Below are positions 8,783 through 44,602 of a DNA stretch of 64,000 nt, piece after piece. The DNA comes from Cytophagales bacterium (GTDB lineage Bacteria > Bacteroidota > Bacteroidia > Cytophagales > Cyclobacteriaceae): contig JAFLBQ010000010.1 of the NCBI GenBank assembly GCA_017303805.1, positions 49,742 through 113,741 on the forward strand. Direction: 5' to 3'. Position 1 is the first letter of the stretch. Every line of letters begins with the position of its first letter. The notes under the pieces are model-generated. The model saw only the letters and a list, made by a program, of their open reading frames with translations, was not told where the DNA came from and searched no databases. The position numbers and the translations under genes were made by a program.

Positions 8783-8794
8783 AAACATTTTAGT

Positions 8795-9868: not shown

Positions 9869-9875
9869 GAATACC

Positions 9876-11388: not shown

Positions 11389-11568
11389 GGGCTTATTTTT
11401 GGGTTGGTTTTGATAAAGGCGCTGGCGTTTCTAAAGGCTGGTACTTAATTGTCATATTTTGGGTTTAAAGCTAACTTTTATGTCAAAATAAAGTCATTTT
11501 TTGATAAAAAACAGCAAACGATTGCGGATTACTTAAGTCAACTTTAATGCTCTTAAAACCCTGATGCT
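11389..11568. promoter_or_regulatory. Divergent regulatory region with phased GTCA repeats
   Basis: This AT-rich gap lies between the AraC gene and the ThuA/copper operon. The tetramer GTCA, in the same orientation, begins at 11451, 11482, 11493 and 11537. The steps are 31, 11 and 44 bp, close to whole helical turns. The first two lie in the longer repeats TGTCATATT (11450) and TGTCAAAAT (11481). Spaced direct repeats are how AraC-type dimers usually bind. No consensus TTTG/TAnnTTTG promoter is evident, consistent with an activator-dependent start. Confidence 0.4.
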
Positions 11569-27629: not shown

Positions 27630-30600
27630 CTATTTTTTTATTCGAGGTGGAATAAGTTTATAAACCACCGGTGTAACCACCCTCGAAAGCAAAGTAGAAC
27701 TTACCAATCCTCCAATCAAGACAATAGCCAGTGGCGATATTAACGGATTGGATGAAAGTGCAATTGGCAACAAGCCACCAATGGCTGTAAGCGATGTTAA
27801 GATGATGGGCAGAAAGCGGATTTCGCCTGCTTCGCGAATAGCCTCTTCCAACGTTTTGCCTTGTTCGCGCAACTGATTGGTAAAATCAACAAGCAAGATT
27901 GTATTCTTTACCTCGATGCCGGCCAGTGCAATAAGCCCCACAATGGCAACAAACGATAATGAATTGCCTGTAAACAGCAGCGCCAGCACAGCCCCCACAA
28001 TCCCTAACGGAATTACAGATAGCACAATAAGCGTACTTTTAAAGGTGCGAAACTCTAAGATCAACACGGCAATAAATAAAAAGACGGTAACAATAATTAC
28101 TTTTTCAAATCCGCCAAACGATTCTTGCCGGCTTTCTACTTCGCCACCCATTCTAAACGAGTAGCCATTGGGCAATGGCATGTTGTTCATTTGTTTTTCT
28201 ACGGTTGCGATTACGTTGCCAGCCAAAAAATTCTTGTCCACAAAAGCAGTAACCGAAACCATGCGCACCTTATCGAAGTGGTTGATGTTAAGCGGAGTGG
28301 TTTCTAACCGCAAGTCGGCTACTTGGGCCAACGGTATAGCCCGGCCGCTTGCATTATTTACAAATACATTTTGCAAGGCATCTAATGTGGGTGTGCCCGG
28401 ATTATTTTTGGTTACAAGGATTGCAATTTCATCTCCGTTCTCGTCTTGAAATTTGCCAACGTTCAATCCGGCAACAGCCAGCCGCACCGTACGATCAATG
28501 GCCAGCGTTGACACGCCCAGCATGCGGGCTTTCTCTTTATGGATAGCTACTTTTATATCGGATTTCAGATGCGTTACCGGGTTGGTAATATAAATGGTAC
28601 CCGGTGTTGTGGTAAGCATTGTTTCAACTTTTGCTGCCAGGTTGCGCAGGGTATCCAGGTTATCGCCAAACAAGCGAACTTCTACGGGTGCATTAATGGG
28701 TGGACCTTGTTCAAAATTTTTAACTTCAACTTTGGCTCCGGGGTAGGGGGTCCATTGGTTTCGTAACCGCTCTATTAACTGCAATTTTTTTTCAGACCGA
28801 ATGTTTTCATGCAACTGCACAAAGATTTGTGTGTAGTCGGTACGTTCGTTTTCCGGAATCACATTATAGTAAATGCGCGGATTACCCTTGCCCACGTTCG
28901 ATGCAAAATATTTTATTTCTGGATGTGTGGTTAACTCAACTTCTACCAACCGCGTAATACTATCGGTGTAAGCCAGGTTAGATTGCAGGGGAGTTGTTAT
29001 ATCCATCAGGAACTGCGGCTTCTCACTAGCCGGAAACAAACTGAATCCGATAACCGGAAATAACTGCAAGGAACCAATAAAAATCGCAAGTGCGATAACG
29101 ATCGTCCACCAGGGTTTGGCCAATGCTTTGTCCAGCAGTGGCGCATAGCTGCCATGGATAATCTTTTTCAAGCCACGCATAAACAGGTTCCCATCGGGGT
29201 GGCCATGCTTTTCTTTTAACAGGCGGCTGGAAAGAAATGGAATAATGGTAAGTGAAACCACCATAGAGGCCAACACCGAAGTGATGACACCCATTGGTAA
29301 GCTCCGGATAAACTCACCGGCCGCTTCGGGCATAAACACCAACGGCAAAAATGCAATGATAAGTGTGGCGGTACAACCCACTACTGCAAGCCCAATTTGC
29401 GAGGTGGCCTTGAGCGTAGCTTCTAACCGGGTATGTCCTTCCAATATCCACCGTTCAATATTTTCAACCACCACAATGCTGTCATCTACCAAAAGGCCAA
29501 GGGCAACCACCAGCCCTACGATGCTCAGTTGATTGAGGTTGTAGCCCAGCACATTCATAAACACTATGCCAATTGCTAACGAAAGCGGAATGGAGATCAT
29601 TACAATAATGGCCGCACGCTGGCCAAGTGGAAGCAGGGTAATGGCCACCAGCAAAATGGCAAGCATGAAATCAAAGCCAAGGCCACGCAGGCGTTTGTTT
29701 ACATTGTCGGCCTGGTCGAAGTGATGCACCAGGTCTATATTACCCGGCAACTCTTTTTTAAAATCGGCTATTGCCTTGCAATAAATCTCCTGTGTCTTCG
29801 AAATGTTTTCGCCTTCTTTTTGCGCTGCGGTTACAAACAAACTGCGATAGCCGTTTAAGCGCGTAATGTGGGTTGCTTCTTCAAAAGAAGGATACACCTC
29901 GGCAACATCTTGCAATAAGATATTCTTTCCGTTGGCCGAAAATACAATAGTGGTTTTTATTTCCTGGTAGTCTTTATAATTACCACTGGTTTTTACGTTA
30001 AACGATTTGGTACCGGCATTTACATTTCCACCCGGAATGCTGGCCATCTCACTTTGTAAAGAGCCTAACACAGCATCAACCGGAATTCGCATGTTCGCCA
30101 GCTTTTCAAGTTTCAAATCAACGCGTACGATTTTATCGGGCAAGCCATGTATGCGCACGCGTTTCAATTGCTTTATTTGTTCCAGCTTCGTTTGCAAAGC
30201 TTCGGCTTGTTGGCGTAGGCTTTCGCGCGAAGCGTTTTCCGATACCAGCGCAATCTGAACTACATTCACATCGGAAGGTGTTACTTTACGCACCTCAATG
30301 CTCGCCAGGTTTTGCGGAAGTTCATCGCGCAAAGCATTTACCTCGCGCACTAACTCCGAATATTTCTCATCCACATCACTCTCGTAGTTGTATTCCACCA
30401 ACAACACAGCCACGCCATCGCTTATGTTGGTTTTAATACGTTTAATGTCTTCCAGTTCAGATACCACGCGTTCCAGCGGTTCGGCAACCAACTCTTCCAT
30501 GTCTTTAGGGCTTGCGCCCGGATACACCACCACGATAGGAAACTGGGGTGCATGCAGTTCGGGATCTTCCGAGCGGGGCATATTTAAAATGGTGGTAACC

Positions 30601-30674
30601 CCCAGGGCTACAATCATTAAAAAGATTACCAGCGTAAACTGATAATTCTTTACTGCGTATGCTGAGATTTTCAT
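27630..30674 (-). CDS. RND efflux pump inner-membrane permease (AcrB/HAE1-like)
   Basis: A 1014-residue transporter with the RND layout: TM1 at the N-terminus, two large periplasmic loops and two groups of TM helices. The proton-relay Asp pair is in TM4 (VVALGLLVDDSIVVVENIERW). The start MKISAYAVKNYQFTLVIFL and the motif PRSEDPEL are typical of the subgroup found with TriABC/MexJK-like pumps. It is 5 bp downstream of the membrane-fusion protein, last in a tetR-tolC-mfp-rnd operon. It would export hydrophobic drugs, detergents or similar compounds; no metal-export signature is obvious. Confidence 0.93.
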   Translation of the reverse strand: MKISAYAVKNYQFTLVIFLMIVALGVTTILNMPRSEDPELHAPQFPIVVVYPGASPKDMEELVAEPLERVVSELEDIKRIKTNISDGVAVLLVEYNYESDVDEKYSELVREVNALRDELPQNLASIEVRKVTPSDVNVVQIALVSENASRESLRQQAEALQTKLEQIKQLKRVRIHGLPDKIVRVDLKLEKLANMRIPVDAVLGSLQSEMASIPGGNVNAGTKSFNVKTSGNYKDYQEIKTTIVFSANGKNILLQDVAEVYPSFEEATHITRLNGYRSLFVTAAQKEGENISKTQEIYCKAIADFKKELPGNIDLVHHFDQADNVNKRLRGLGFDFMLAILLVAITLLPLGQRAAIIVMISIPLSLAIGIVFMNVLGYNLNQLSIVGLVVALGLLVDDSIVVVENIERWILEGHTRLEATLKATSQIGLAVVGCTATLIIAFLPLVFMPEAAGEFIRSLPMGVITSVLASMVVSLTIIPFLSSRLLKEKHGHPDGNLFMRGLKKIIHGSYAPLLDKALAKPWWTIVIALAIFIGSLQLFPVIGFSLFPASEKPQFLMDITTPLQSNLAYTDSITRLVEVELTTHPEIKYFASNVGKGNPRIYYNVIPENERTDYTQIFVQLHENIRSEKKLQLIERLRNQWTPYPGAKVEVKNFEQGPPINAPVEVRLFGDNLDTLRNLAAKVETMLTTTPGTIYITNPVTHLKSDIKVAIHKEKARMLGVSTLAIDRTVRLAVAGLNVGKFQDENGDEIAILVTKNNPGTPTLDALQNVFVNNASGRAIPLAQVADLRLETTPLNINHFDKVRMVSVTAFVDKNFLAGNVIATVEKQMNNMPLPNGYSFRMGGEVESRQESFGGFEKVIIVTVFLFIAVLILEFRTFKSTLIVLSVIPLGIVGAVLALLFTGNSLSFVAIVGLIALAGIEVKNTILLVDFTNQLREQGKTLEEAIREAGEIRFLPIILTSLTAIGGLLPIALSSNPLISPLAIVLIGGLVSSTLLSRVVTPVVYKLIPPRIKK

Positions 30675-30679
30675 AACCC

Positions 30680-31726
30680 TTAGCGACTGATGATGGTAAG
30701 CTCAGATCCGTCTTTCAAGTAAGCGCTGCCACTCACAATCACTTGCTGGCCATCTGCCAGCCCACCCGAAATCAAAACAGAATTTTTTTCGATGCCTATT
30801 ACCGCTACCGGGGTTTTAACTGCTTTGCCGTCTTGTGCAATAAACACGTACCCGGCATTGGCATTGCCATCCAGCAAGGCTTCATAAGGTAGTTTCCAAA
30901 CTTGTTGATTGCGGGCGGCACGCAGGGTAGCCGTGCCAACCAAACCCGCAGCCAATTGTTGCTCCTGTTCAACCACGGTAATTTCAACTTGCAGCGCACC
31001 ATTGTACGCATCTACCGCAGCTGATTTTTTGCTAACAACACCTTTCCAGATTTTTCCCGGCAAGGCATCGGCAGTTATCGTAGCCTTGTCGCCCGGTTCA
31101 ATAATAGCCCACTCCCGATCGGCCACACCTACTTTTAAGATCCAGTGCTGCGACCCGGCTCCATTCGTTTGCAAAACCGGACTTCCCGATGTGATAACCT
31201 GTCCTTCCTGGACAAATTTGCGTAACACGTTGCCGCTTCGTATTGCCCGGATTTCGGAGTAGCTGCGATTGAACCTCGCACTTTGCAATTGTTGCGATGC
31301 CACCTCCCATGCAGTGCGTGCATTTTGAAATTGCTCTAAGGTGGCAACACTGTCTTTATAAAGATTTTGCGCCCGGTTAAAATCGCGGGTAGCTTTTTCA
31401 AAAGCTAATTCGGCTTGCGTTACCTGTGCATTTATTTCCGTAAGGTGTAGCGTAGCCAATAGCTGACCAGCGCGTATTGCATCACCTTCTTTTACAAAGA
31501 TCTTATCAATTACACCTCCAACTTTAAAGGAGAGCAGGGTTTCGTCATCGGTTGTAAACTGGCCGGCTGCTTTGATTTCCGGTTGCAGCAGATAAGACGT
31601 GGCAGTAATTACCTGCACCGGAATTTGTGTGCGGGGACTGCTTGTTTCTTCGGGTTGGGGCGCACGGCAGGCTTGCAGCACTACCAAAAGTGAAATTACA
31701 GTAAATGAGATTTTCATATCGGACAT
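30680..31726 (-). CDS. RND efflux periplasmic adaptor (membrane-fusion) lipoprotein
   Basis: A 348-residue HlyD/AcrA-type adaptor with a lipobox ending VVLQAC (Cys20), anchoring it to the membrane. Landmarks are the lipoyl half-motif VGGVIDKIFVKEGDAIRAGQLLA, a coiled-coil hairpin around residues 100-150, and the beta-barrel region with TLRAARNQQVW. It links the RND pump to the TolC-like channel across the periplasm. It lies 17 bp after tolC and 5 bp before the pump. An in-frame ATG three codons later (31717) is an alternative start. Confidence 0.92.
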   Translation of the reverse strand: MSDMKISFTVISLLVVLQACRAPQPEETSSPRTQIPVQVITATSYLLQPEIKAAGQFTTDDETLLSFKVGGVIDKIFVKEGDAIRAGQLLATLHLTEINAQVTQAELAFEKATRDFNRAQNLYKDSVATLEQFQNARTAWEVASQQLQSARFNRSYSEIRAIRSGNVLRKFVQEGQVITSGSPVLQTNGAGSQHWILKVGVADREWAIIEPGDKATITADALPGKIWKGVVSKKSAAVDAYNGALQVEITVVEQEQQLAAGLVGTATLRAARNQQVWKLPYEALLDGNANAGYVFIAQDGKAVKTPVAVIGIEKNSVLISGGLADGQQVIVSGSAYLKDGSELTIISR

Positions 31727-31743
31727 TTAGTTATTGATAAGTT

Positions 31744-33102
31744 TTATTCTGGTAATGGGATTGCCGCGGTTTCGCGTTCAAGATTAGCCGTGGCTATAAG
31801 TATTTTGTACTGCGAAACGGCCATGAGCAATTGCGCTGCTGTAAGTTGGGCGCGCGCATCAATCGATTCAATAAAAGTACTGGCGCCTTCTTTATATCCT
31901 TTTTCAATCAGGCGTTCGTAACTCTGGGCTGCGTCTAATTGTTTTTGAGCCGAGAGGTAGTTTTGCCGTGCCGTTAGCAATGCGTTGTACGAAGTACTTA
32001 TACTTAAGTCGAGTTGGGTGGCAACCTGTTGATTTGTAAGTTCACTGGTACGGACTTCCAGTTTAGATTGGGCTATTTTGTTGCGATTGGTAAAGCCGGC
32101 AAACAAGGGCATTTCCAGTTGCACGCCTAATAAATAGTAATTGGCGTTTTGATTGTACCGCATGCGCTCGGCCTGCGCACCCAAATCGGCAAACGCGCTT
32201 ACGCGAGGGGTCCATACGTGGCGATTCATAGCTACAATGGTTTGCTGAATTGTAGTTGCTGTTTCCAGTTGTTTAAGTTCTTCGCGCTGAGCAGCGTTTG
32301 CTTCGGGCAGGGTTTGTAAAAGTGTTGGGCCATCCACCGGGTAGTTGCTATCAATTAAACTTTGCCCATCGCGATTGAGCAAAAAGTTAAAATAGAGTTT
32401 AGCATTTTCTGCCTGGCGGGTAGCATCGGCAAGTTGGGCTTTCATGTTTTCCAACTCACTCTGCGAGCGCAGGATGTAGGCCGGCAATCCTTTTCCGTTT
32501 GCCAGCAGGGCTTCGTTCACACGTTTACTTTCTTCGGCCCGCGTAAGGGCACTCTCGTAAATTTTTATGCTTTGCAACGCAGCCAAATAATTGAAATAAG
32601 CCACCTTAATATTTCGAAGTAACTCGCGCTTGTAAATGGCCACTTCATAACCCTGCATAACGGTTTGCTGCGTCTTTATTTTTTTATTGTAGATCAGGTC
32701 TGTATTTACAAGCGGCATGGAGGTTCGGGCGCGTACATCATAAAAGTCGCGGGGAAAAAAATTCTGATTAACGTTTTCGATGGTTGGAAAATTGGAGCTT
32801 CCCGTTAATTGATTGAGGGTGGTGTAAACCGGGTTTAATAAATCACCTACCGGAAAACTGATGCTCCGGCCTCCGTCACCTGTAGTATAGTTACCTAACA
32901 ACGTAATGCTGGGGCTAAACATGCCGTTGGCAATTTTAAGAGCCAGCATGGCTTTCTCTAAGGCAATGTTTTTTTGCTGTAACACCAGGTTGTTTTTCAA
33001 ACCCTCTGCCAGGTAGCCGTCCAGCGGAGGTTGCGCAAAACTTAATACCGAACTCAGACTAAATAGGGCGATTATCAGGCCGTTAATGAATAGTGTTTTC
33101 AT
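31744..33102 (-). CDS. TolC-family outer-membrane efflux channel
   Basis: A 452-residue protein with a signal peptide ending in VLSFAQ and two long helical OEP repeats containing heptad patterns (for example around residues 180-245 and 390-435). It forms the outer-membrane exit duct of the adjacent RND system. It starts 33 bp after tetR; a palindromic operator fills that gap almost up to the start codon. The order channel-adaptor-pump is common in Bacteroidota. Confidence 0.92.
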   Translation of the reverse strand: MKTLFINGLIIALFSLSSVLSFAQPPLDGYLAEGLKNNLVLQQKNIALEKAMLALKIANGMFSPSITLLGNYTTGDGGRSISFPVGDLLNPVYTTLNQLTGSSNFPTIENVNQNFFPRDFYDVRARTSMPLVNTDLIYNKKIKTQQTVMQGYEVAIYKRELLRNIKVAYFNYLAALQSIKIYESALTRAEESKRVNEALLANGKGLPAYILRSQSELENMKAQLADATRQAENAKLYFNFLLNRDGQSLIDSNYPVDGPTLLQTLPEANAAQREELKQLETATTIQQTIVAMNRHVWTPRVSAFADLGAQAERMRYNQNANYYLLGVQLEMPLFAGFTNRNKIAQSKLEVRTSELTNQQVATQLDLSISTSYNALLTARQNYLSAQKQLDAAQSYERLIEKGYKEGASTFIESIDARAQLTAAQLLMAVSQYKILIATANLERETAAIPLPE

Positions 33103-33104
33103 AG

Positions 33105-33117
33105 TGAACAGTGTTCA
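33105..33117. promoter_or_regulatory. TetR operator 1 (between tetR and tolC)
   Basis: The perfect palindrome TGAACA-G-TGTTCA lies 2 bp upstream of the tolC start codon. Its first 11 bases recur upstream of tetR (33799-33811), so both are probably bound by the neighbouring TetR protein. Confidence 0.65.
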
Positions 33118-33135
33118 TTTTAGAGAAAAATTTTT

Positions 33136-33771
33136 TTAGGTTTTTAGTTTTTCGGCAACGGTTACAAAGGTTTCGAATGTGGACGACATGAGTTGATCCA
33201 GGTTCAAATCGCTAAACTTGGCAGCGCCCACATGCTCCAGGTGTCCGGTTAAACGCAGGGTACACAAGCCATGCATCATGCTCCAGATCATAAAAGACAT
33301 TTGCTCCGCATTAAATCCGGTAAAGTAGCCAACGGTTTGGCATTCTTTAACGGTTTGCAAAAGTATATCAAACGCGCGGTCGCCTTCATCCCATTCTTCA
33401 AAGCAATTGGCCACGTGCTTTAAAGGCTCTTCCATATTGAACAAAAGGGTGTAGATATCAGGGTTTTGCAAGGCAAATTGAATGTACGCCCGGCCCATGC
33501 CTTTCAATCGCTCAAACGGGTGGTTGATATGATTTAACACTTCAAAATGACCCACCAACAGTTTAAACCCTTCGCGGTGAAGGGCATGTACTATTTCGTT
33601 TTTATCTTTATAGTACAGATAAATCGTTGCCGGACTGTATTCTATTTTATCGGCAATGGCCCGAATAGAAGTTGCCTCCAATCCCTTTTCTGCAAACAGT
33701 GTTTTGGCGGCATCTAAGATCTCCCGTTTCAGGTCTTCCTTGTGGCGTTCTTTTCTTTCGGCTACTCCCAT
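33136..33771 (-). CDS. TetR-family repressor of the RND efflux operon
   Basis: A 211-residue regulator. The DNA-binding domain occupies residues 10-60 (ILDAAKTLFAEKGLEATSIRAIADKIEYSPATIYLYYKDK), with a helical ligand domain after it. I start at the ATG at 33771 (MGVAERKERHKED). A longer frame to 33840 would translate through the palindromic operator at 33799-33811 and adds an unrelated peptide. It is the first gene of the efflux operon and should repress it until a pump substrate binds. Two near-identical palindromes, one upstream of tetR and one upstream of tolC, fit autoregulation. Confidence 0.9.
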   Translation of the reverse strand: MGVAERKERHKEDLKREILDAAKTLFAEKGLEATSIRAIADKIEYSPATIYLYYKDKNEIVHALHREGFKLLVGHFEVLNHINHPFERLKGMGRAYIQFALQNPDIYTLLFNMEEPLKHVANCFEEWDEGDRAFDILLQTVKECQTVGYFTGFNAEQMSFMIWSMMHGLCTLRLTGHLEHVGAAKFSDLNLDQLMSSTFETFVTVAEKLKT

Positions 33772-33791
33772 GATGTTTGCAAAGAAAACGG

Positions 33792-33818
33792 AAAATACTG
33801 AACAGTGTTTAGTATTTT
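33792..33818. promoter_or_regulatory. TetR operator 2 (upstream of tetR)
   Basis: An imperfect palindrome with 13-bp arms and one mismatch, centred on G33805; its core TGAACAGTGTTTA (33799-33811) differs in one base from operator 1. It lies 21-47 bp upstream of the tetR start, where it would overlap the promoter of the efflux operon. Confidence 0.7.
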
Positions 33819-33973
33819 TTAATTTTTTTTGTGAATGCACTAATGGAGGTTAAAAACAAGGTTTTTTTTTAGGAGGCCCCACTTAAATTAAAAATCATGG
33901 CCCCAATGGGTTGTTATTATTCGGGCAATTTTCGGATTTGAAAACCCCCGCAGATATTTACACCTTTAGTGAT

Positions 33974-35884
33974 ATGAGCGTAAGGAGTAAATGTGTGTTG
34001 ACTGGAATTTTAGTGCTGGTAGTAATAGCTGGCAGCGATTTGTGGGCACAAACTGCCGTTACTACCGATTTGGTAGAAGAAAGGATTTTCTTATTGAACG
34101 ACCTGGAGTTTCTCCTCGATCCCACCAATCAGGTAACATTTGATCAGATCAATTCTCCGCACTACCAAAATCAATTTGTTCGCAGAAGTGGCTATCAGAA
34201 TAAAGACTACCGTTCGGGCGAGTCGTACTGGATTCGGTTTGCAGTTAATCATGTACGCACCGAGAAGGTGTGGCTGATAGAGTTTTACGATCAGACCATC
34301 GATCACGTAGAAGCCTACATTCCCCGGCCCGATGGCGGGCATGACAGGCGCGTGATGGGCGATGCCTATCCGTTTAACCAGCGCACCTATGCCCATAAAA
34401 ATTTCGAAGTGCAATTGTATCCCTTCGAGCCCTCGGTACAGTATTATTATTTCAAAGTAAAGTCGCACGAGTTTGCAGACATCCGCATAGCCTTTCGGTC
34501 GGCTAATCGGTTTATCTCTTACGCACTTAACGAATATTTTTTGTTTGGCACCTTTTACGGAATGATTTTGATTATTGCACTGTACAACTTCCTTGTGTTT
34601 CTGGCTATTCGGGAGATTAAGTACATCTACTATATATTTTATATAGTGAGTGTAGCGCTCTATGCCATTAGCCTGGATGGCGTTGGCTTTCAATACCTAT
34701 GGCCCAACTTTCCGCAATGGAACGATTATGCCTCGGGTATTTTCCTTTACTCCGTTATGCTATGGGCGCTTATTTTTACCCGCAGGTTTTTAAGTACCCG
34801 CACCAAAAGCCCCCGGCTCGATCTGGCCTTAAAGATTATGATTGGTGTGCGCACTGCCGTGTTTCTTTTCGAATTGTTTTTTTATCCCGAGTTTTTTGCC
34901 TTCCGGTTTATCGAAATCATTCCGCTTTCGCTGATTTATTTTTCAGGGGTTTATGTGCTTACCCGCGGGTACCGGCCGGCCCGGTATTTTGTTATTGCAT
35001 TTGGCCTGCTTTTGATCGGGTTCTTTATTCGCACCCTGGTATTTTTTAACATCATTGCACTTACCACCGTATCGCACTACAGCCTGCACTTCAGCTTTGT
35101 AATCGAAATGCTGTTTCTAACCTTTGCCTTGGGCGATCGCATCACCATTCTAAAGGATAACCGCGATCGGGCTTTGCGCAGAATCATTCATCAGCACGAA
35201 GTAAACATGGCGTTGAAGGATAAAGTTACCCGCGAGTTAGAGGAAAAGGTACAAGAACGTACAGCCGAGCTGAACCAGAAAAACGAAGAGTTGGCGGCCA
35301 GCAATACCCGACTTGTACAGCAAACACACGAGATTAACCAAATCAATTCTGTTCTTGATCTGGATAACTGGAAACTCAAGAACAAGATAAAAGTGGTGTT
35401 GGAAGAGCGGTTATTGGATAAAACGATGGATTACGATGAATTCAAAACACTTTACCCGGATGCTCTTGCCTGTTATCGGTTTTTAGAAGAGTTAAAATGG
35501 CAACATGGCTTTGCATGCGGTAAGTGTGGCAACTCGAAATACTTTGAGGGCACCCAGAAGTTTGCGCGCAGGTGCACGCGCTGCGGGTACAACGAGTCCA
35601 TTACTGCCTACACGCTCTTTCAAGGTCTTAAGTTTCCGATTGAGAAAGCCTTCTACATTGCCTACCTGGCTGTGGCTGGAAAAAAATCGATAACGCTGGA
35701 AGCTCTGGCCCTTCAACTGGAAATTGGGGTAAACGCAGTGTGGGGCTTCCGCAAGAAAGTGCACGACCGCATCGACCATCTTTCTCAAACCGGTACGGCT
35801 GTGCAGATTTCAAGGTGGGAGGAGGTAATTCTTGATCGGAAGCACTCCAAACCAGCAAAAAGCGCGGTCAAAATGCAGCACTAG
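33974..35884 (+). CDS. 7TM-DISM membrane sensor fused to an IS1595-transposase-type zinc ribbon/HTH
   Basis: A 636-residue protein, started at the ATG at 33974, which opens a signal peptide ending in SDLWAQ. Residues 30-175 or so are a periplasmic 7TMR-DISMED2-like beta domain (GESYWIRFAVNH, then YYYFKVKSHEF). Residues 185-390 form seven membrane helices. A coiled coil covers about 395-475 (ELEEKVQERTAELNQKNEEL). The C-terminus is not a kinase or LytTR domain. Instead DEFKTLYPDALACYRFLEELKW leads into a zinc ribbon with Cys515/Cys518 and Cys534/Cys537, then a helix-turn-helix region (KKSITLEALALQLEIGVNAVW). This matches the N-terminal module of IS1595/ISXO2 transposases. The DDE catalytic domain is absent. 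I infer a membrane-tethered regulator of the SusCD locus that follows 248 bp downstream. Confidence 0.82.
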   Translation: MSVRSKCVLTGILVLVVIAGSDLWAQTAVTTDLVEERIFLLNDLEFLLDPTNQVTFDQINSPHYQNQFVRRSGYQNKDYRSGESYWIRFAVNHVRTEKVWLIEFYDQTIDHVEAYIPRPDGGHDRRVMGDAYPFNQRTYAHKNFEVQLYPFEPSVQYYYFKVKSHEFADIRIAFRSANRFISYALNEYFLFGTFYGMILIIALYNFLVFLAIREIKYIYYIFYIVSVALYAISLDGVGFQYLWPNFPQWNDYASGIFLYSVMLWALIFTRRFLSTRTKSPRLDLALKIMIGVRTAVFLFELFFYPEFFAFRFIEIIPLSLIYFSGVYVLTRGYRPARYFVIAFGLLLIGFFIRTLVFFNIIALTTVSHYSLHFSFVIEMLFLTFALGDRITILKDNRDRALRRIIHQHEVNMALKDKVTRELEEKVQERTAELNQKNEELAASNTRLVQQTHEINQINSVLDLDNWKLKNKIKVVLEERLLDKTMDYDEFKTLYPDALACYRFLEELKWQHGFACGKCGNSKYFEGTQKFARRCTRCGYNESITAYTLFQGLKFPIEKAFYIAYLAVAGKKSITLEALALQLEIGVNAVWGFRKKVHDRIDHLSQTGTAVQISRWEEVILDRKHSKPAKSAVKMQH

Positions 35885-36132
35885 AAATCGATTTCTGAAT
35901 TTCAGCGTTTGGAAAGGTTTTCGGCTAAATGTTTTTATTCCGAAAATTTGTTCCCCAGTATCGGCAAATTGTGCCTGAAATCGTTTGTAATCAATGTTTT
36001 TATTAGATAAAAAAGGCAAAATTGCAACTCCCAGTTTGCGGTATCAATTTGCCTTGTTTCGGGTAAAATATTACTTGTTATAGTTGCTTTTATCAAAATT
36101 AGCTAAGCGAATAACTAAAATATCGCCTGCTT
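35883..36132 (+). promoter_or_regulatory. Upstream region of susC with repeated operator-like motifs
   Basis: This gap between the membrane regulator and susC contains several repeats. A perfect 14-bp palindrome AGAAATCGATTTCT (35883-35896) overlaps the regulator's stop codon. A 12-bp direct repeat AATGTTTTTATT lies at 35928-35939 and 35993-36004. GGCAAATTG-like motifs lie at 35963-35971 (plus), 36015-36024 (plus, one extra A) and 36045-36053 (minus). TATAGTTG at 36079-36086 is a 7/8 match to the -7 promoter box. Confidence 0.45.
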
Positions 36133-39100
36133 ATGATAAGAAAACTACTATTAACTACTTTGTTTTCAGCGTTTTTGCTGGGAACAGCATTAGCACAAGA
36201 CCGGGTTGTTTCAGGTAGGGTAACCTCTTCTGACGATGGCTCAGCGCTTCCGGGAGTAAGTGTGTTGGTACAAGGTACAACTAAAGGTACTGCAACAGAT
36301 GCCAACGGTTCTTATTCTCTAACCTTAAATCAGGGCGAGAATACCCTGGTTTTTAGTTTTATCGGGTATAAAACGGTTGTAATTCCGGTAGGCTCACAAT
36401 CAACCCTCGATATTTCGCTTCAAACAGATATTACGGCTCTGGAGGAAGTGGTAGTAGTAGGGTACGGAGTGCAGAAGGAAAAAGACCTGACCTCAGCTAT
36501 CAAAACCATCCGCTCGGAAGAACTTTCCAAAACTCCTCAAGGCCAGGCAATGCAGGCTTTGCAAGGTAAAGTTCCGGGCTTGCAAATAGTTAATAATGGT
36601 GCCCCGGGAGTTTCGCCCACAGTACGCATTCGTGGTATCGGCTCATTTCCTGGGTCGGGTAATACCAATCCATTATATGTAGTAGATGGAATGTTTTTCG
36701 ATAACATCGATTTTCTGAATCCATCTGATATCGAGTCGATCTCGGTTATGAAAGATGCTTCGGCTGCTGCCATTTATGGAGTGCGTGCAGCAAACGGGGT
36801 GGTGTTGATTACCACCAAATCGGGTAATAAAAATATGGCACCCGAAATTACCTACGAAGGCTACTACGGAACTCAGATTGCACAGAACGTATTGAAGATG
36901 GCAAACGCAGAGCAGTTTACCAACATGGCTCTTGAGTCCGGAGTACCGGCCGATGCCCAATACATTCAAAATGCAATGCAGCGCTATGGTCGTAGCCGCG
37001 TAAATCCCAACGTGCCTGATGTAAATACAGATTGGTACAAAGAAATTTTAAGACCGGCCGGCATTCAAAACCACAGTATTAACCTTGCCGGTGGCGATAA
37101 GAAAGCAACCTATGCCGTAGGTACCAACTATTTTGGTCAAGATGGTATTCTTGATATGAAAAACAGCTACGAGCGGTTTAACCTGCGCATGAAGGTAGAT
37201 TACAATGCAACAGACTGGTTAACAGTTGGCGGTAATGTAATCATCAGCAACGCCACTAAATACGATGCAGCCGCTTCAGCCTGGAACGTAGCCTACTTTG
37301 CCGTTCCGGTAATGCCTGTTTTTGATGAACAAAACATTAACGCAGTGCCCACCCGCTACGCCAGTGCACAAACACTCGGCTATCGCGATGGCAAGAACCC
37401 ATTCCCCTACATGGACTTTTCGCAAAACATGCAGCGCATTCGCAAAGTGTTGGCCAATTTCTATGTGAAGTTCGATCTGATGCCGGAAACTCCCAATAAG
37501 TTGACTTTCATGTCTTCTTATAATAACGGTTCTACTTACCTCAACACCCGCAATGTGGGCTTGCCTTATTTTGTGAGCGATGCCTTGCAACGCAATGTTT
37601 CATCTATCTCGAAAAGCAACGATACCTACTTCAACCAGATTTGGGATAACGTACTAACTTTTAACGAATCGTTTGGCGATCATAACATTACGGCTATGGC
37701 CGGTGCTTCCTTCCGCGATGAAGCATGGGAATTTTTGACTGCGTCTGCAACCGACCTGATTACACCCGACCAGATTAATTCGTGGTACATTAGCCGAACC
37801 AATGCACCCGCCAATACCCGCACTACCTACGATGACGGTACGCGTCAATACGGAATGTCTTACTTCGGTCGGGTTGCCTATAACTTCAAAGACAAATACC
37901 TGCTGTATGGAACCATGCGTGCCGATGGTACAAGCAAGTACCAGGAAAAATGGGGTTACTTCCCCAGCGTAGGTGCCGGTTGGGTAGTTTCTGAAGAAAG
38001 CTTTATGAACTTGCCTGCCATCAATTACCTTAAATTACGGGGTAGCTGGGGCCGCTTAGGAAACAGCAGCGTTGCTGCCAGCGATGGAAGCTTTACCACC
38101 AGCACAGTGAACGTAGCGATTGACGGAGTGCAGCGTGCAGGTTCGCTTGCCAGCAACACCTTTACCTATTTAAAATGGGAGGTTGTAGAAGAAACCAATG
38201 TGGGCTTAACTGCCAATGTACTTAATAACAAACTCAGCATAGATGCCGACTATTTTATCCGCGATACGAAAGACGCGGTAATTCCGGTACAAGTACCCTT
38301 AACAGGCGGTACTGTAAGACGCCAGGTAGGTGTTATTCGCAATTCAGGCTTTGAACTGGCCTTGAACTGGAACGATAATATTGGCTCCGACATCAAATAC
38401 AATGTGGGTGTTAATATTGGTACGCTTAAAAATCAGGCGCGCGATCTTTATGGTCAGGAATACATTGACGGTGGCTCTGCCGAGTTTCGTCAGCGCACCA
38501 TAATCGGCAACCCGCTTGCTGCCTTCTATGGTTACGAAGTATTGGGTGTTTACCAGACTGCCGAAGAAGTGGCAGCCGATCCTACTGCAGTAGCTCAAGG
38601 TGGTATTGTACCGGGCGACTTTAAATACAAAGATCAAAATGGCGATGGTGTAATAAACGATGCCGACCGCGTGGTGCTGGGTTCTTACCTGCCCAAGTTT
38701 AGCTACGGTGTTAACCTGGGTGCGAGCTACAGAAACTTCGACCTTTCAGTTAACCTGATGGGACAAAACGGTAATAAAATTCTAAACCGCAAGCGCGGAG
38801 AAATTATCTGGACACCCGATGGCAACATGGATGCAGACCTTGCTACCAACCGGTGGCACGGTGCAGGCACTTCCAATAAGTACCCATCGGCAGCAGGCTT
38901 GCGCAAAAGCTGGAACCAGAAAATGAGCGATTACTTCGTGGAAGACGGCTCGTTCTTCCGGATTCAAAATATAAGTCTTGCGTACAACCTGCGCGGCAAA
39001 GAGTTGTTGGGTATCAAAGTTCCGCAAACCCGCATTTCGTTTACAGCCGAGCGCCCACTTACCGTATTCAAGTACAACGGCTTTAACCCCGAAGTGGAGA

Positions 39101-39168
39101 ACGGCATCGATACGCAAACCTACCCGATACCGGCTGTTTATACCGTGGGTCTGAATGTTAAATTTTAA
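36133..39168 (+). CDS. susC: SusC/RagA-family TonB-dependent outer-membrane transporter
   Basis: A 1011-residue TonB-dependent receptor with a signal peptide ending in GTALAQ. A carboxypeptidase-regulatory-like domain spans about residues 24-100 (VSGRVTSSDDGSALPGVSV). The SusC-type motif EEVVVVGYG (residues 104-112) follows, then the plug (VRIRGIGSF, NPLYVVDGMF, KDASAAAIYG) and a 22-strand barrel to the end. It imports oligosaccharides bound by the SusD partner, which starts 14 bp downstream. The rest of the locus (GH144 and GH3) suggests beta-1,2-gluco-oligosaccharides as cargo. It has no N-terminal anti-sigma-interaction (STN) domain, so it is probably not itself an ECF-sigma transducer. 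Confidence 0.95.
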   Translation: MIRKLLLTTLFSAFLLGTALAQDRVVSGRVTSSDDGSALPGVSVLVQGTTKGTATDANGSYSLTLNQGENTLVFSFIGYKTVVIPVGSQSTLDISLQTDITALEEVVVVGYGVQKEKDLTSAIKTIRSEELSKTPQGQAMQALQGKVPGLQIVNNGAPGVSPTVRIRGIGSFPGSGNTNPLYVVDGMFFDNIDFLNPSDIESISVMKDASAAAIYGVRAANGVVLITTKSGNKNMAPEITYEGYYGTQIAQNVLKMANAEQFTNMALESGVPADAQYIQNAMQRYGRSRVNPNVPDVNTDWYKEILRPAGIQNHSINLAGGDKKATYAVGTNYFGQDGILDMKNSYERFNLRMKVDYNATDWLTVGGNVIISNATKYDAAASAWNVAYFAVPVMPVFDEQNINAVPTRYASAQTLGYRDGKNPFPYMDFSQNMQRIRKVLANFYVKFDLMPETPNKLTFMSSYNNGSTYLNTRNVGLPYFVSDALQRNVSSISKSNDTYFNQIWDNVLTFNESFGDHNITAMAGASFRDEAWEFLTASATDLITPDQINSWYISRTNAPANTRTTYDDGTRQYGMSYFGRVAYNFKDKYLLYGTMRADGTSKYQEKWGYFPSVGAGWVVSEESFMNLPAINYLKLRGSWGRLGNSSVAASDGSFTTSTVNVAIDGVQRAGSLASNTFTYLKWEVVEETNVGLTANVLNNKLSIDADYFIRDTKDAVIPVQVPLTGGTVRRQVGVIRNSGFELALNWNDNIGSDIKYNVGVNIGTLKNQARDLYGQEYIDGGSAEFRQRTIIGNPLAAFYGYEVLGVYQTAEEVAADPTAVAQGGIVPGDFKYKDQNGDGVINDADRVVLGSYLPKFSYGVNLGASYRNFDLSVNLMGQNGNKILNRKRGEIIWTPDGNMDADLATNRWHGAGTSNKYPSAAGLRKSWNQKMSDYFVEDGSFFRIQNISLAYNLRGKELLGIKVPQTRISFTAERPLTVFKYNGFNPEVENGIDTQTYPIPAVYTVGLNVKF

Positions 39169-39182
39169 TTAAAGACACAGTT

Positions 39183-40724
39183 ATGAAAATGACTAATAAA
39201 TTTTTAAAAGCAGTAGCATTCGGAGCAGTTCTGTTCTCGGCTACGTCCTGTCATGACTTATTGAACGAGCCACCTGAAAACACTTCGTTTGTGGCCGATA
39301 CCGACTACACCAACACCGACAACATGATTTTACCGTTGTTGGGTGCCTATGGAAATTTCTATAGCCGTGGTTGGGAAGATTTTCCGCTTATTTCGGTGCG
39401 TGGCGATGATGTGAATGCCGGTGGCCTGGGCGATCAGCAACCGTATGCCGATACTGATAATTATACCTACGACCAGGGTTATTGGATGTACAATTCGGTT
39501 TGGCAGAATTTTTTCGGTGATATTATCCGGTTTCATTCTGCTATGGAACAAATTGCCTTGTACAAAGTACATGCGCCTAACCCGGCTGTGGCCGATCAAT
39601 ACATTGCCGAAATAAAAGTGTTGCGGGCGTTTATGTTGCTCAACTTATCGCGCGTGTGGGGTAAAGTTTTTATTCCAACTTCCTCCGATCCGTCCGAGAT
39701 TCTGGTAGCTAACCTGGCAACCAAAGACGAAGTGATGCAACATATTTCGGAGCAGATGGATCAGGCAATTCCGTTATTACCAAACCTTCGCCCCAACCAG
39801 CGCACCGATGTGCGTGGCGGAGTAACACGGCATACGGCATTAGCTATTAAGGCACTGGCTAACCTTGAATTAAAGAACTACCAGGGCGTGGCCGATGCAA
39901 CCTCGCAAATCATTAGTTCCAACCTGTTCACGTTGCATAGCGATTACTATCAATTATTCAAGCTGGCCGGTAAGTTGAACAACGAAAATTTACTGGAACT
40001 TCAGTATTCAGATTTTGGCCAGGGTTCCGGTCCTAACATTTCGTACTTGTTTGCATTCTTTGGTCCGCAAAACTGGACTCCGCAAGTTACAGGCTCGGGC
40101 GGTGGCTGGGGTTTTTATGAACCCAGCATGAAGTACATCAAGTTTATGCTTGATCGTAACGAAACTGTGCGCTTAGAAACGAGTGTAATTTTTACTAACC
40201 GCGGTATCAATGCCATCAAAGCAGATCCTAATTATGCCACCTTGCCTGCATGGATAACCAATACCACTCGTGAAAATGATCGCTTTAACGATTACCCACG
40301 GGCTATGTTTGCCAGTGGTAAGCATTACCTGCCCTCTACGCAGCTTACTACGGGGCGCACCGATTACGGTACCAATAAAAACTTTACCTGCATCCGGTAC
40401 TCAGAAATTCTGTTAATGCATGCCGAAGCATTAACCCGTGGTGCAACCAGTTCGGCTATGACGGCCGATGCGGCTGTTAACCTGGTGCGCAACCGCGTAA
40501 GTTTGAGCAGCCTGAGCAGCGTTACCTCACAACAGGTAATGGACGAAAAATTTGCTGAGTTAGCAATGGAGTGGGGAACACGCTACTACGACCTGATCCG
40601 GTTAGGTAACCTGAACGAGCTGAACTACGATGGCAGAACGTTTACGGCAAATAAAACTTATTTGCCATACCCACAAAATCAGATAGACCAGTTGCCTGCT
40701 TTGCGCACCGCCAACAATAACTAA
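39183..40724 (+). CDS. susD: SusD/RagB-family glycan-binding lipoprotein
   Basis: A 513-residue surface lipoprotein (lipobox FSATSC, Cys23) with the SusD tetratricopeptide-like helical fold: the N-terminal motif LLNEPPENTSF, AEIKVLRAFMLLNLSRVWG, and the C-terminal signature CIRYSEILLMHAEAL followed by MEWGTRYYDLIRLG. It caps the SusC barrel and binds the incoming glycan. It is cotranscribed with susC and with the double-LamG lipoprotein 20 bp downstream. Confidence 0.95.
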   Translation: MKMTNKFLKAVAFGAVLFSATSCHDLLNEPPENTSFVADTDYTNTDNMILPLLGAYGNFYSRGWEDFPLISVRGDDVNAGGLGDQQPYADTDNYTYDQGYWMYNSVWQNFFGDIIRFHSAMEQIALYKVHAPNPAVADQYIAEIKVLRAFMLLNLSRVWGKVFIPTSSDPSEILVANLATKDEVMQHISEQMDQAIPLLPNLRPNQRTDVRGGVTRHTALAIKALANLELKNYQGVADATSQIISSNLFTLHSDYYQLFKLAGKLNNENLLELQYSDFGQGSGPNISYLFAFFGPQNWTPQVTGSGGGWGFYEPSMKYIKFMLDRNETVRLETSVIFTNRGINAIKADPNYATLPAWITNTTRENDRFNDYPRAMFASGKHYLPSTQLTTGRTDYGTNKNFTCIRYSEILLMHAEALTRGATSSAMTADAAVNLVRNRVSLSSLSSVTSQQVMDEKFAELAMEWGTRYYDLIRLGNLNELNYDGRTFTANKTYLPYPQNQIDQLPALRTANNN

Positions 40725-40744: not shown

Positions 40745-42481
40745 ATGAGTATGAGAACAATTAAGAATATACTGGCAGCCATCACGATTCTGGGTATGGT
40801 GGGTGCTTGTAACGAGGGGATTGACCCAATTAGTGCAGTGGCACCCGGGCCAGACGAAACGGCACCGGTAATTACCGTAACCTATCCGAATGAAGGCACT
40901 GAAATTAAGGTTGCCGAAACCCTTATTTCTATCAATATCAAGTTTGAAGTAACAGACGATATTGAAATCAAGAACATCGTAGTAAAAATGGATGGCAACA
41001 ATGTGGCCACCTTCACCGATTTTCCGGATTACCGCAGGGCAGTAAAAGACGTGCTGTACGATGGGCTAACAACAGGCGAGCATGTGCTTAGCATTGTGGC
41101 TACCGATATGGAAAACAAGGTAACTACCCGCAACATTAACTTTGAAAAGAAACCGCCTTATATTCCGATTTTTGCAGGTGAGATTTTCTACATGCCTTTT
41201 GATGGAATCTATACTGAGCTGATTAGTATTACCAACCCTACAGTGGTTGGCTCGCCTCAGTTTGCTGGCGAAGGAAAGCGAGGCGGCAATGCGTACAAAG
41301 GTGTAACCAATGCGTATTTGACTTACCCAACAGCGGGTTTGTTGGGCACGGAGTTTAGCGCTTCTTTCTGGATGAAAGTGGATGCAAATCCGGATAGAGC
41401 CGGGGTATTGGTTGCCGGCCCTCCCGGTATTAATACCCGCACACAAGGCTTCCGCTTCTTCCGCGAAAATGCAGGTGGTAAGCAACGCTTCAAGTTAAAT
41501 GTGGGTAATGGTACCAGCGACTTTTGGTTTGACGGGGGCGCGAATGCCGATGTTGTTCCCAATACGAATGAATGGGTTCACTTTGCCTTCTCCATCTCGG
41601 CTACCAATGCTGCGGTATATATCAACGGCCAGGTAGCTTCGCAAGGGCCGCTTACAGGCGGTGTAAACTGGGCAGGCTGCGATGTGTTGTCTATTATGTC
41701 GGGTGCTACGCGCTTTACGGAATGGGGCCACTTGTCGGATCAGAGTAAAATGGATGAGTTGCGCTTGTTCAACAAAGCGCTTACGCAAGCCGATGTATTG
41801 GCTATTATTGGCAGCGACTACACACCTAAGTATGCAGGTGAAGTACTTTACATGCCATTCAACACCGACTTTAGCGATTTGGTGGGCGGCTCTACTGTTA
41901 CCACGGTAGGATCACCCGCACTGGCCGGCCAGGGCAAAGCCGGTGGTAACTCTTACAAAGGAGTTGCTAATTCATATCTTATTTATCCTACCACTAACCT
42001 TACCAAAACAAATCAATTCAGTGCCGTATTCTGGATGAAGGTAAATGCATCGCCAGATCGGGCCGGTATTTTGGTAATGGGCCCTCCCGGAGATAACATC
42101 CGCACGCATGGGTTCCGCTTCTTCCGCGAAAATGCAGGCGGTAAGCAGCGATTTAAATTAAACGTGGGCAATGGTACGGCCGACAGTTGGTTTGATGGCG
42201 GCACCGCTGCCGATGTAGATCCAGCCGGAAACCCGTGGGTGCATTTGGCTTTCACTATTTCAGGTTCGCAGTGTACGGTTTATATCAACGGGGTAATTGC
42301 ATCGCAGGGAGCACTTCCCGTTGGTGTTAGCTGGGCTGGTTGCGATGTACTTTCCATTATGTCGGGTGCACCCCGCTTTATGGAGTGGGGCCACCTTTCA
42401 GATGAAAGCTTTATGGATGAATTACGGATTTTTGATAAAGCACTTACACAAGCCGAAGTTCAGACTATAATGAACGAGTAA
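40745..42481 (+). CDS. Surface lipoprotein with Ig-like domain and two tandem LamG domains (SusE/F position)
   Basis: A 578-residue lipoprotein (Cys22 in MVGAC). Residues 40-135 look like a bacterial Ig-like domain (APVITVTYPNEGTEI). Two concanavalin-A-like LamG domains follow, at about 142-355 and 362-578. They are close copies: both contain FRFFRENAGGKQRFKLNVGN, AGCDVLSIMSGA and MDELR with FNKALTQA or FDKALTQA. This is a recent in-frame duplication of about 660 bp. The gene takes the SusE/SusF place after susD and probably encodes a glycan-binding protein on the cell surface. Two hairpins follow the stop codon. Confidence 0.88.
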   Translation: MSMRTIKNILAAITILGMVGACNEGIDPISAVAPGPDETAPVITVTYPNEGTEIKVAETLISINIKFEVTDDIEIKNIVVKMDGNNVATFTDFPDYRRAVKDVLYDGLTTGEHVLSIVATDMENKVTTRNINFEKKPPYIPIFAGEIFYMPFDGIYTELISITNPTVVGSPQFAGEGKRGGNAYKGVTNAYLTYPTAGLLGTEFSASFWMKVDANPDRAGVLVAGPPGINTRTQGFRFFRENAGGKQRFKLNVGNGTSDFWFDGGANADVVPNTNEWVHFAFSISATNAAVYINGQVASQGPLTGGVNWAGCDVLSIMSGATRFTEWGHLSDQSKMDELRLFNKALTQADVLAIIGSDYTPKYAGEVLYMPFNTDFSDLVGGSTVTTVGSPALAGQGKAGGNSYKGVANSYLIYPTTNLTKTNQFSAVFWMKVNASPDRAGILVMGPPGDNIRTHGFRFFRENAGGKQRFKLNVGNGTADSWFDGGTAADVDPAGNPWVHLAFTISGSQCTVYINGVIASQGALPVGVSWAGCDVLSIMSGAPRFMEWGHLSDESFMDELRIFDKALTQAEVQTIMNE

Positions 42482-42523: not shown

Positions 42524-42559
42524 TGGTTTATTTAGTTTTTGTTGTTTAGGAGTTGTTTC

Positions 42560-42588
42560 AAAGAGGATACCGGTAAGGTATCCTCTTT
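42560..42588 (+). terminator. Perfect 12-bp hairpin just upstream of the GH144 start
   Basis: AAAGAGGATACC (42560-42571) and GGTATCCTCTTT (42577-42588) are perfectly complementary over a 5-nt loop. The hairpin ends 7 bp before the ATG at 42596, so it could act as a terminator/attenuator, an RNA-stability element for the downstream mRNA, or a control on translation start. Confidence 0.6.
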
Positions 42589-42595
42589 CCTTACT

Positions 42596-44575
42596 ATGGT
42601 TATGGTGCAGCGATTTATTTTATTCGTTCTTTTAGTTTGGCTGGGTCTGTTTTCGGGGTGTAAAGAAGATGATGCTCCGGCCAGCCTCGTATTAACGGAT
42701 GTATTTGTTGGCTCAACCAAACTAGATCTTTCTGGTGCTGCCATCACCAATATCCCAACCGATGCAGCCCTCCTGCTTTCGTTCTCGGTACCGGTTACCA
42801 CCACCTCGGCTGCCAGCGCCATTCTGCTTGCTTCCAATGGTAAAAGTGTAGCCGTATCGTTAAGTTTTTTGAGCGACAGCAAGCAGGTGTTGGTGCAACC
42901 GGTAGGGGCATTAGCTCAAAGCACCAACTATACGCTTTCTATAACCGATCAATTGAAAGGATCCGGTGGCGCAACATTTCAGGCGCAGGCAATTAATTTT
43001 AAAACGGTGCCGGGCAGCCTGGTTCTTCTTGCCACACGCTTTAATGGGCAAGCTGCTACTTCGCTGCGGGTAACCAATATAGCCATAGCAGGCCTCCAGG
43101 TAGAATACGATTTTTCTGTTCCACTTAATCCGGCTACGGTTTCTAATTCGGTTTTCAGAGTTACCGGACCAACCGTAGTGGCCGTGGCTACCGAGTTATA
43201 CAACGATAACAAATCAGTAAGGGTAACCACCAGTTCCAATCTTCAATACCTAAGTAAATACCAGGCTACCATCTCCAATGCATTAAGGGGCGCGGAAGGA
43301 CAATCGTTAGCTGCCTTGCAGCGTGATTTTTTTACTGCGGTGGATACTGCACCTAAGTTTCCTATTATAACCGATGAAGCATTGCTCACCTTGGTGCAGC
43401 AACAAACCTTCCGCTACTTTTGGGACTTTGCACATGCAGCCAGCGGTATGGCGCGCGAGCGCAATACTTCGGGTGATTTGGTTACCAGTGGCGGATCTGG
43501 TTTTGGCCTCATGGCAATTATTGTTGGTATTGAGCGCGGCTTTATCTCGCGCACACAAGGCGTTGAGCGGCTCACTAAAATCATAACCTTTCTCGAAACG
43601 GCCGATCGCTTTCATGGTGCCTGGCCACATTGGCTAAACGGTACCACCGGAAAAGTAATTCCATTTGGCGCTAACGACAACGGTGGCGACCTGGTAGAAA
43701 CCGCGTTTCTGGTGCAGGGTCTTCTTACCGTTCGACAATACCTGCAGGCAGTTGATGCTACTGAAAATAATTTAAAGAATCGGATCACAGCACTGTACCA
43801 GGGTGTTGAGTGGGATTGGTACCGCAGAGGAGGGCAGAATGTACTCTACTGGCACTGGTCGCCCGATAAAGAATGGACCATGAATTTGCAGATAAAAGGT
43901 TGGAACGAAGCTTTGGTTGTATATGTGTTGGCGGCTGCATCCACTACCCATACAATTCCAAAAGCAGTGTATGATGCCGGCTGGGCCAGCAATGGCGCCA
44001 TGCAAAACGGTAATCAATACGAGGGCATTACCTTGCCGCTGGGTTATGCGTATGGCGGCCCGTTATTTTTATCGCAGTATTCTTTTCTTGGAATAGACCC
44101 ACGCACTTTATCCGATGCGTATTGCACAAATTATTTTACACAAAACAAAAATCATACACGTATTAACCGGGCGTATTGTATTCGCAACCCAAAAGATTTT
44201 GTGGGGTACAGTGCTCAAAACTGGGGGCTTACCGCGAGCGATAATCACCAGGGTTATAATGCCCATTCGCCCACCAACGATTTAGGAGTAATTACACCCA
44301 CGGCAGCGTTATCGGCATTCCCATTTACGCCCGATGAGTCGATGGAAGCGTTAAAGTTTTTTTATTACACACTGGGCGATAAGCTTTGGGGCACCTACGG
44401 TTTTTACGATGCATTTAGTATTACCGAAGGGTGGTATGCAAATTCTTATTTGGCCATCGATCAGGGCCCCATTGTTATAATGATTGAAAATTACCGCACG
44501 GGACTACTCTGGAATTTATTTATGTCGGCACCGGAAGTCCAGGCCGGATTGAATAAACTTGGTTTTACGTATTGA
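42596..44575 (+). CDS. GH144-like endo-beta-1,2-glucanase lipoprotein with two Ig-like (Big_5) domains
   Basis: A 659-residue lipoprotein (Cys22 in GLFSGC), started at the ATG at 42596; an ATG two codons on is equivalent. Two Big_5 Ig-like domains fill residues 25-250 or so. The C-terminal domain (about 260-659) belongs to the 'glucoamylase' Pfam family that includes GH144 endo-beta-1,2-glucanases: QQTFRYFWDFAHAASGMARER, FGLMAIIVGIERGFI, ETAFLVQGLL, YWHWSPDKEW, ASDNHQGYNAHSPTNDLGVI, and DAFSITEGWYANSYLAIDQGP. GH144 enzymes cut linear beta-1,2-glucan to sophoro-oligosaccharides. The following gene is a GH3 beta-glucosidase, the known partner in beta-1,2-glucan use. A different beta-glucan substrate remains possible. 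Confidence 0.85.
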   Translation: MVMVQRFILFVLLVWLGLFSGCKEDDAPASLVLTDVFVGSTKLDLSGAAITNIPTDAALLLSFSVPVTTTSAASAILLASNGKSVAVSLSFLSDSKQVLVQPVGALAQSTNYTLSITDQLKGSGGATFQAQAINFKTVPGSLVLLATRFNGQAATSLRVTNIAIAGLQVEYDFSVPLNPATVSNSVFRVTGPTVVAVATELYNDNKSVRVTTSSNLQYLSKYQATISNALRGAEGQSLAALQRDFFTAVDTAPKFPIITDEALLTLVQQQTFRYFWDFAHAASGMARERNTSGDLVTSGGSGFGLMAIIVGIERGFISRTQGVERLTKIITFLETADRFHGAWPHWLNGTTGKVIPFGANDNGGDLVETAFLVQGLLTVRQYLQAVDATENNLKNRITALYQGVEWDWYRRGGQNVLYWHWSPDKEWTMNLQIKGWNEALVVYVLAAASTTHTIPKAVYDAGWASNGAMQNGNQYEGITLPLGYAYGGPLFLSQYSFLGIDPRTLSDAYCTNYFTQNKNHTRINRAYCIRNPKDFVGYSAQNWGLTASDNHQGYNAHSPTNDLGVITPTAALSAFPFTPDESMEALKFFYYTLGDKLWGTYGFYDAFSITEGWYANSYLAIDQGPIVIMIENYRTGLLWNLFMSAPEVQAGLNKLGFTY

Positions 44576-44602
44576 AAATTGATTGACAAAAAATTTAATC
44601 TT

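Follow-up and report, generated by a model that had tools for sequence, protein, structure and literature searches.

A candidate membrane-bound regulator of a glycan locus in Cytophagales, with an output module that appears to derive from an IS1595 transposase

Three designs for the control of glycan loci in Bacteroidota, SusR-like regulators, hybrid two-component systems (HTCS) and pairs of extracytoplasmic-function (ECF) sigma and anti-sigma factors, are named in the main text of PMC3878776. According to the same text, SusR is an activating membrane protein that senses in the periplasm and carries a C-terminal DNA-binding part in the cytoplasm, which does not significantly resemble that of any other known factor; predicted operators of the SusR type pair two direct repeats at a centre-to-centre distance of 67 or 77 bp. 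HTCS operators are direct repeats as well, 21 bp apart on average (PMC3878776). Here we analyse 64,000 nucleotides from a Cytophagales bacterium (Cyclobacteriaceae; GCA_017303805.1, contig JAFLBQ010000010.1, 49,742-113,741 of the forward strand), hereafter the window, in which a gene at 33974-35884 precedes a susC-like gene. Comparative sequence evidence makes it very probable that this gene encodes a membrane-bound one-component protein that regulates the polysaccharide-utilization locus next to it and is equipped with a domesticated IS1595 DNA-binding module. We call the protein, hereafter the regulator, a membrane-bound glycan regulator with a transposase-derived output, of which the output is new and the kind of regulator known. 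By analogy, we propose that it works like SusR/SusR2 of Bacteroides: both would be membrane regulators of glycan loci with paired repeats, although the spacings seen here (64-66 and 78-81 bp) are similar in sort to those of the SusR type rather than the same numbers, and our boxes are putative operators. HTCS are likewise membrane-bound glycan regulators with direct-repeat operators (PMC3878776, main text), but the Pfam scan found no histidine kinase, receiver or AraC-type helix-turn-helix (HTH) in the regulator. Nor did it find Sigma70 region 4 or FecR domains there. With 7TMR-DISM receptors such as RetS the regulator shares a DISMED2 ectodomain and a seven-transmembrane (7TM) domain; yet where the known outputs of these receptors are kinases, cyclases, phosphatases and the like, its own would be the transposase-derived module. 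A literature search, with most subscription papers outside its reach, listed no description of a 7TM-DISM/IS1595 fusion or of a domesticated-transposase regulator of this kind, and the words 7TM and transposase are absent from the main texts of PMC3878776 and of a review of hemicellulase regulation (PMC10766802). A glycan switch of this kind seems not to have been described before. Its parts are as follows, with the means of detection in brackets.

33974-35884, plus strand: 7TM-DISM sensor/IS1595 zinc-ribbon-HTH fusion, proposed regulator of the locus, 636 residues (open reading frame with Pfam and NCBIfam)
33974-34048, plus strand: probable signal peptide, hydrophobic N-terminus, residues 1-25 (sequence reading only)
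34100-34489, plus strand: 7TMR-DISMED2 extracytoplasmic domain, residues 43-172 (Pfam PF07696, 2.4e-24)
34532-35140, plus strand: 7TMR-DISM_7TM membrane domain, residues 187-389 (Pfam PF07695, 9.6e-46)
35141-35413, plus strand: predicted long signalling helix or coiled coil, residues 390-480 (predicted model)
35468-35590, plus strand: IS1595-type zinc ribbon, residues 499-539, with Cys515/518/534/537 (Pfam PF12760)
35639-35788, plus strand: predicted three-helix unit with HTH, residues 556-605 (homologous to the N-terminal part of IS1595 transposases; predicted models)

An earlier sequence-only reading of this DNA had described a fusion of a DISMED2-like domain, seven membrane helices, a coiled coil, a zinc ribbon and an HTH-like tail, without a DDE domain, and this architecture was confirmed. 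The DISMED2, DISM_7TM and zinc-ribbon domains all exceed curated Pfam cut-offs (Zn_ribbon_IS1595: 1.9e-7; 31.3 bits, cut-off 25.4), the tail did not match any non-DNA-binding ribbon, and DDE_Tnp_IS1595 (PF12762) had no match in the regulator at E up to 1 in the Pfam scan. The segment after the ribbon matches the NCBIfam IS1595 transposase model weakly, at profile positions 3-52 of 215 (E 9e-4; 19.1 bits, cut-off 75). For the full regulator, AlphaFold2 with a 30-sequence alignment predicted (mean predicted local distance difference test, pLDDT, 80) a beta-rich ectodomain, membrane helices, one continuous helix from 370 to 480 and a zinc-ribbon-like segment, with confidence below 50 at residues 1-25 and 464-483; modelled alone, the tail (mean pLDDT 81, much of its core above 90) ends its three-helix unit in an HTH. 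In the full model, the HTH helix stops at 605 and 31 residues come after it. In Foldseek, the ectodomain of the full model resembles the periplasmic domain of RetS (3jyb, 2xbz; E 7.3e-4).

The same reading had taken the tail for a domesticated transposase domain, a claim that the tail profile supports: built from 28 diverse tails, it retrieves IS1595 (ISXO2) transposases and matches them at their N-terminus, covering the first ~130 residues, where they carry their own zinc ribbon and HTH part. This domain layout of IS1595 is confirmed by the Merlin paper (PMC8101967). The regulator differs in lacking the DDE domain and in having the module as the C-terminus of a receptor; in the genome of the window, the tail matched nothing except itself. 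Of 395 Bacteroidota genomes searched with the profile, 54 matched at E <= 1e-8, through open reading frames of two main kinds: fusions of ~620-720 residues with the tail at the C-terminus, and frames of ~290-345 residues, besides shorter ones, matched near residues 3-130. Three of the ~290-345-residue frames were scanned for DDE_Tnp_IS1595, which was found above cut-off in two and below it in one. In a tree of 71 tails (51 fusion rows and 20 others; 125 columns, many forks open), the fusion tails group together inside the transposases, the sole non-fusion among them being a standalone protein of 137 residues, and a single clade of all 51 fusion tails against the 20 other rows was not rejected (approximately unbiased test, p-AU 0.494). 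The tree thereby fits one capture of the IS1595 tail, without proving it. Catalytic aspartates were judged by eye: the nearest sequences outside the fusion tails, paralogs of one other genome, lack the usual ones, and the next nearest, a transposase cut by a contig end, has two in its remaining part. Nine loci of one genome (G388, L220-L228) encode IS1595-like proteins of 304-332 residues, 50-93% alike, whose N-terminal part is very similar to the sensor-fused tails (E ~1e-48) and whose catalytic part, by eye, is without the usual two aspartates; they are possibly a second, soluble domestication. Three short frames in which Pfam found the zinc ribbon alone (L186 1194-1607, L188 1477-2034 and L191 1501-1953; 137, 185 and 150 residues) may be standalone regulators or transposase fragments.

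The fusion is conserved, and mostly directly before susC. At E 1e-20, 134 of 196 genomes of the family matched the regulator, many through the tail and others through tail-less 7TM proteins only; of the 22 PF12760 matches in 39 near genomes, 16 fall within open frames of 626-718 residues. A scan of named genomes gave 173 relatives, from Cyclobacteriaceae and allied groups (e.g. Chryseolinea, Roseivirga, Fulvivirga), and in the best 80 of the 173 the match extends to query residue 597 or beyond, save in one relative cut by a contig end. Cys515/518/534/537 are invariant in a 30-sequence alignment, and the four zinc cysteines are retained in 118 of 119 proteins, a set in which two genes each occur twice, drawn from two collections and identical over the last 500 residues; the exception is cut by a contig end. 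Across 81 loci (the best 80 relatives plus the window, two of them without a next gene on the contig), SusC directly follows the regulator in 69 and is at most four genes away in 73, SusD comes second in 58, a laminin-G-like (LamG) cluster third in 55 and a PF10091 cluster fourth in 54; the upstream neighbours of the regulator are variable. As a control, SusC stood next to 0/20 tail-less 7TM-DISM relatives, chosen among the tail-less matches listed, and two genes before in 3/20. Other families of the order or class supplied four fusions (one, L206, identified without Pfam), which SusC and SusD follow at a distance of one to three genes. In four loci (L050, L093, L094, L103) the regulator is present with no SusC among the genes listed; in the last of these, from Fulvivirga sediminis, two relatives of the regulator stand head to head (7742-11755).

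The distance of 248 bp given in the sequence-only reading was borne out: susC starts at 36133, on the same strand, 248 bp past the stop codon of the regulator. This gap holds two direct-repeat boxes and two further conserved sequences.

35928-35946, plus strand: box A, upstream direct repeat AATGTTTTTATTCCGAAAA (pattern search)
35984-36001, plus strand: conserved element TTTGTAATCAATGTTTTT, the sole exact copy in the genome (gap comparison, genome search)
35993-36014, plus strand: box B, downstream direct repeat, near-palindromic, 65 bp from box A (pattern search)
36024-36039, no strand assigned: imperfect inverted repeat GCAACTCCCAGTTTGC, GCAACT(C/T)CC(A/T)GTTTGC, downstream of box B (conserved in an alignment of the window with six close relatives)

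The box patterns were derived and counted on the same gaps, with shuffles, the other strand and other spacings as controls. Between regulator and susC, the core [ACG][AT]TGTTTTT occurs at least twice in 33/69 gaps and in 5/690 shuffles, with no such case on the other strand; in 32 of these 33 gaps the pair is spaced by 64-66 bp. A looser form, which takes in the Roseivirga/Fulvivirga branch, gives a pair at 64-66 bp in 49/69 gaps and 24/690 shuffles; the pair is found in 0/69 gaps on the other strand and in at most 4/69 in any other 3-bp window from 40 to 99. By one form of the pattern, the starts at 35928 and 35993 are the only two in the 64-kb window; a related form, allowing one mismatch, has a further match at 8770-8788 (minus strand). 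The element TTTGWAATCAATGTTTTT, allowing at most one mismatch, is present in 24/69 gaps and 0/345 shuffles, and the exact conserved element occurs once in the 4.29-Mb genome (with up to two mismatches, four matches against two for the reversed control).

Among the matches listed, paralogs of the regulator were named groups 1-3 by identity. Group 2 (nine loci, ~36-39% identical) lies directly before susC in 9/9 and has a distinct box, [GC]CGTATCA, which occurs twice, 78-81 bp apart, in 9/9 gaps and in 0/900 shuffles; this pattern was widened after viewing the alignment from GCGTATCA, of which the exact word is paired in 5/9, and some of the nine gaps look like near-copies (L140, L141). By eye, several group 2 boxes read TTG-N6-AAGCG-TATCA, against TTG-N6-AAGCG-CAATA in a distant branch of group 1, a likeness as expected for one DNA-binding family whose specificity had shifted. 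Each group 2 locus includes a gene of a GH30 cluster, of which the scanned member has 5ngk, which we take to be a beta-1,6-glucanase, as its nearest solved relative. Group 3 (~27-32% identical) adjoins GH10, GH43, GH115, GH97 and esterase clusters, i.e. xylan loci. There, ATGAAATCGGTTGCAT, which we take to resemble a LacI operator, and variants of it precede SusC, GH115 and other xylan-locus genes (L142, L143, L146, L148, L149, L151, L165, L171, L172). The locus of the window itself continues as follows.

36133-39168, plus strand: susC-like TonB-dependent transporter that lacks the N-terminal extension of SusC proteins next to FecR genes (Pfam, length comparison)
39183-40724, plus strand: susD-like protein (Pfam)
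40745-42481, plus strand: Big_7 and two laminin-G-like domains, glycan-binding candidate (Pfam)
42539-44575, plus strand: PF10091 enzyme, near the solved endo-beta-1,2-glucanase 5gzh, E 1.8e-156 (Pfam and sequence match)
44579-46876, plus strand: GH3 enzyme, near 3u48 and 5xxl (Pfam and sequence match)

Since the PF10091 enzyme is near 5gzh and the GH3 enzyme near 3u48 and 5xxl, the last presumably of beta-1,2 specificity, the likely substrate is beta-1,2-glucan.

The same kind of locus also exists without the regulator. Its glucanase was found at E 1e-80 in 114 of the 196 genomes of the family, and the best match listed was of the long kind in 97; 73 of these 97 have a group 1 regulator (at most 15 kb away in 67, on another contig in five and far away in one) and 24 do not, while 7 of 80 regulator-bearing genomes fall outside the 97. 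Thirteen of the 24 loci were compared. None (0/13) has TGTTTTT boxes before susC, and the looser box pair was found neither in the gap, which in nine of the 13 is merely 21-155 bp long, nor in the 500 bp before susC, nor in 57 intergenic stretches of at least 80 bp. In 9/13, those with the short gaps, a FecR-type gene immediately precedes susC, and a sigma-like gene accompanies it in that stretch (Sigma70 region 4 and FecR by a Pfam check in two loci, the others assigned by BLAST clusters); the slot holds a Reg_prop/Y_Y_Y protein in one of the remaining loci and other genes in three. The comparison agrees with the earlier proposal that the regulator might stand in for ECF/anti-sigma control: FecR/ECF-sigma systems occupy the same place in the same kind of glucanase locus, although their proteins are unrelated to the regulator. 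SusC differs as well, measuring 1119-1178 residues in 10 of the 13 loci, the nine with FecR among them, against at most 1067 in the 69 beside the regulator, and CarbopepD_reg_2 starts at residue 137 in one scanned regulator-less SusC against 26 in that of the window. The longer N-terminus, in which Pfam named no domain, suggests the signalling extension of anti-sigma systems. The contrast between regulator and FecR is a correlation, as the lineages differ in other ways too.

From synteny, paired boxes and regulator-less loci, the regulatory idea gains comparative support. In the mechanism that we favour, the regulator would sit in the inner membrane, in the orientation suggested by its domain families, where the DISMED2 ectodomain and the seven-helix bundle would respond either to a sugar (probably a beta-1,2-gluco-oligosaccharide) or to a loaded partner. 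The resulting change would travel down the long, putatively dimeric helix (370-480) to a cytoplasmic zinc-ribbon/HTH module, derived from an IS1595 transposase that would have kept its N-terminal DNA-binding part and lost its catalytic domain, and a dimer, or a pair of dimers, would bind the two direct-repeat boxes 65 bp apart between regulator and susC, most likely activating susCD and the glycan enzymes. That the regulator represses the locus from the same boxes until ligand lifts the repression is an unlikely alternative, if one to be taken seriously: no clear promoter before susC, against which the boxes could be placed, was found by eye in the alignment of the window and close relatives. 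Yet in the window the box starts lie 140 and 205 bp ahead of the susC start codon, where activator sites are more usual. SusR, with its similar spacing, also activates (PMC3878776, main text). Less probable again is that the boxes are owned by another transcription factor, which the membrane protein would contact through a tail serving as a protein- or RNA-binding module. Zinc ribbons do bind proteins and RNA as well, the LacI-operator-like sequence recurs in the xylan loci of group 3, and LacI-like letters stand, by eye, beside the boxes in some group 1 and group 2 gaps; moreover, the HTH fold matches of the tail model are weak and paired boxes were not found in group 3 gaps, two limits on the favoured mechanism. 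However, the box differs between two paralog groups of the regulator, the 13 regulator-less versions of the locus lack the pair, and zinc ribbon and HTH part have been kept together, as in transposases, all of which speaks against this alternative. That the fusion is a mere fossil of a transposon insertion with a functionless tail is barely credible, even for a tail stemming from a mobile element family, given the conservation of that tail (cysteines in 118/119) and the fact that groups 2 and 3 each form one clade with loci of their own.

Taken more broadly, it is probable, though less so than the regulatory role itself, that a class of seven-helix receptors captured the DNA-binding head of IS1595, apparently once, and became a set of swappable one-component switches over beta-1,2-glucan, GH30 (probably beta-1,6-glucan) and xylan loci. 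These switches would trade places with ECF-sigma/anti-sigma modules at one and the same locus and would use paired sites like those of SusR, spaced by six to seven helical turns. If true, this would be a further way of controlling Bacteroidota glycan loci, in which a receptor contacts DNA itself through a bacterial transposase domain that has been domesticated. It also hints that operators paired over a long spacing may go with membrane-tethered regulators in general, irrespective of the fold that binds DNA. The same kind of locus exists with and without the regulator, with different sequence before susC; therefore the swap of control logic is directly testable. Because of their zinc ribbon, such fusion proteins are probably liable to annotation as transposases. 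Finally, upstream of the regulator, the window carries on the minus strand (27630-33840) genes that by reading of their open frames look like those of an RND pump, a membrane-fusion protein, a TolC-like protein and a TetR-like protein, and such an RND/TolC-like set also lies upstream in 4 of the 80 relatives.
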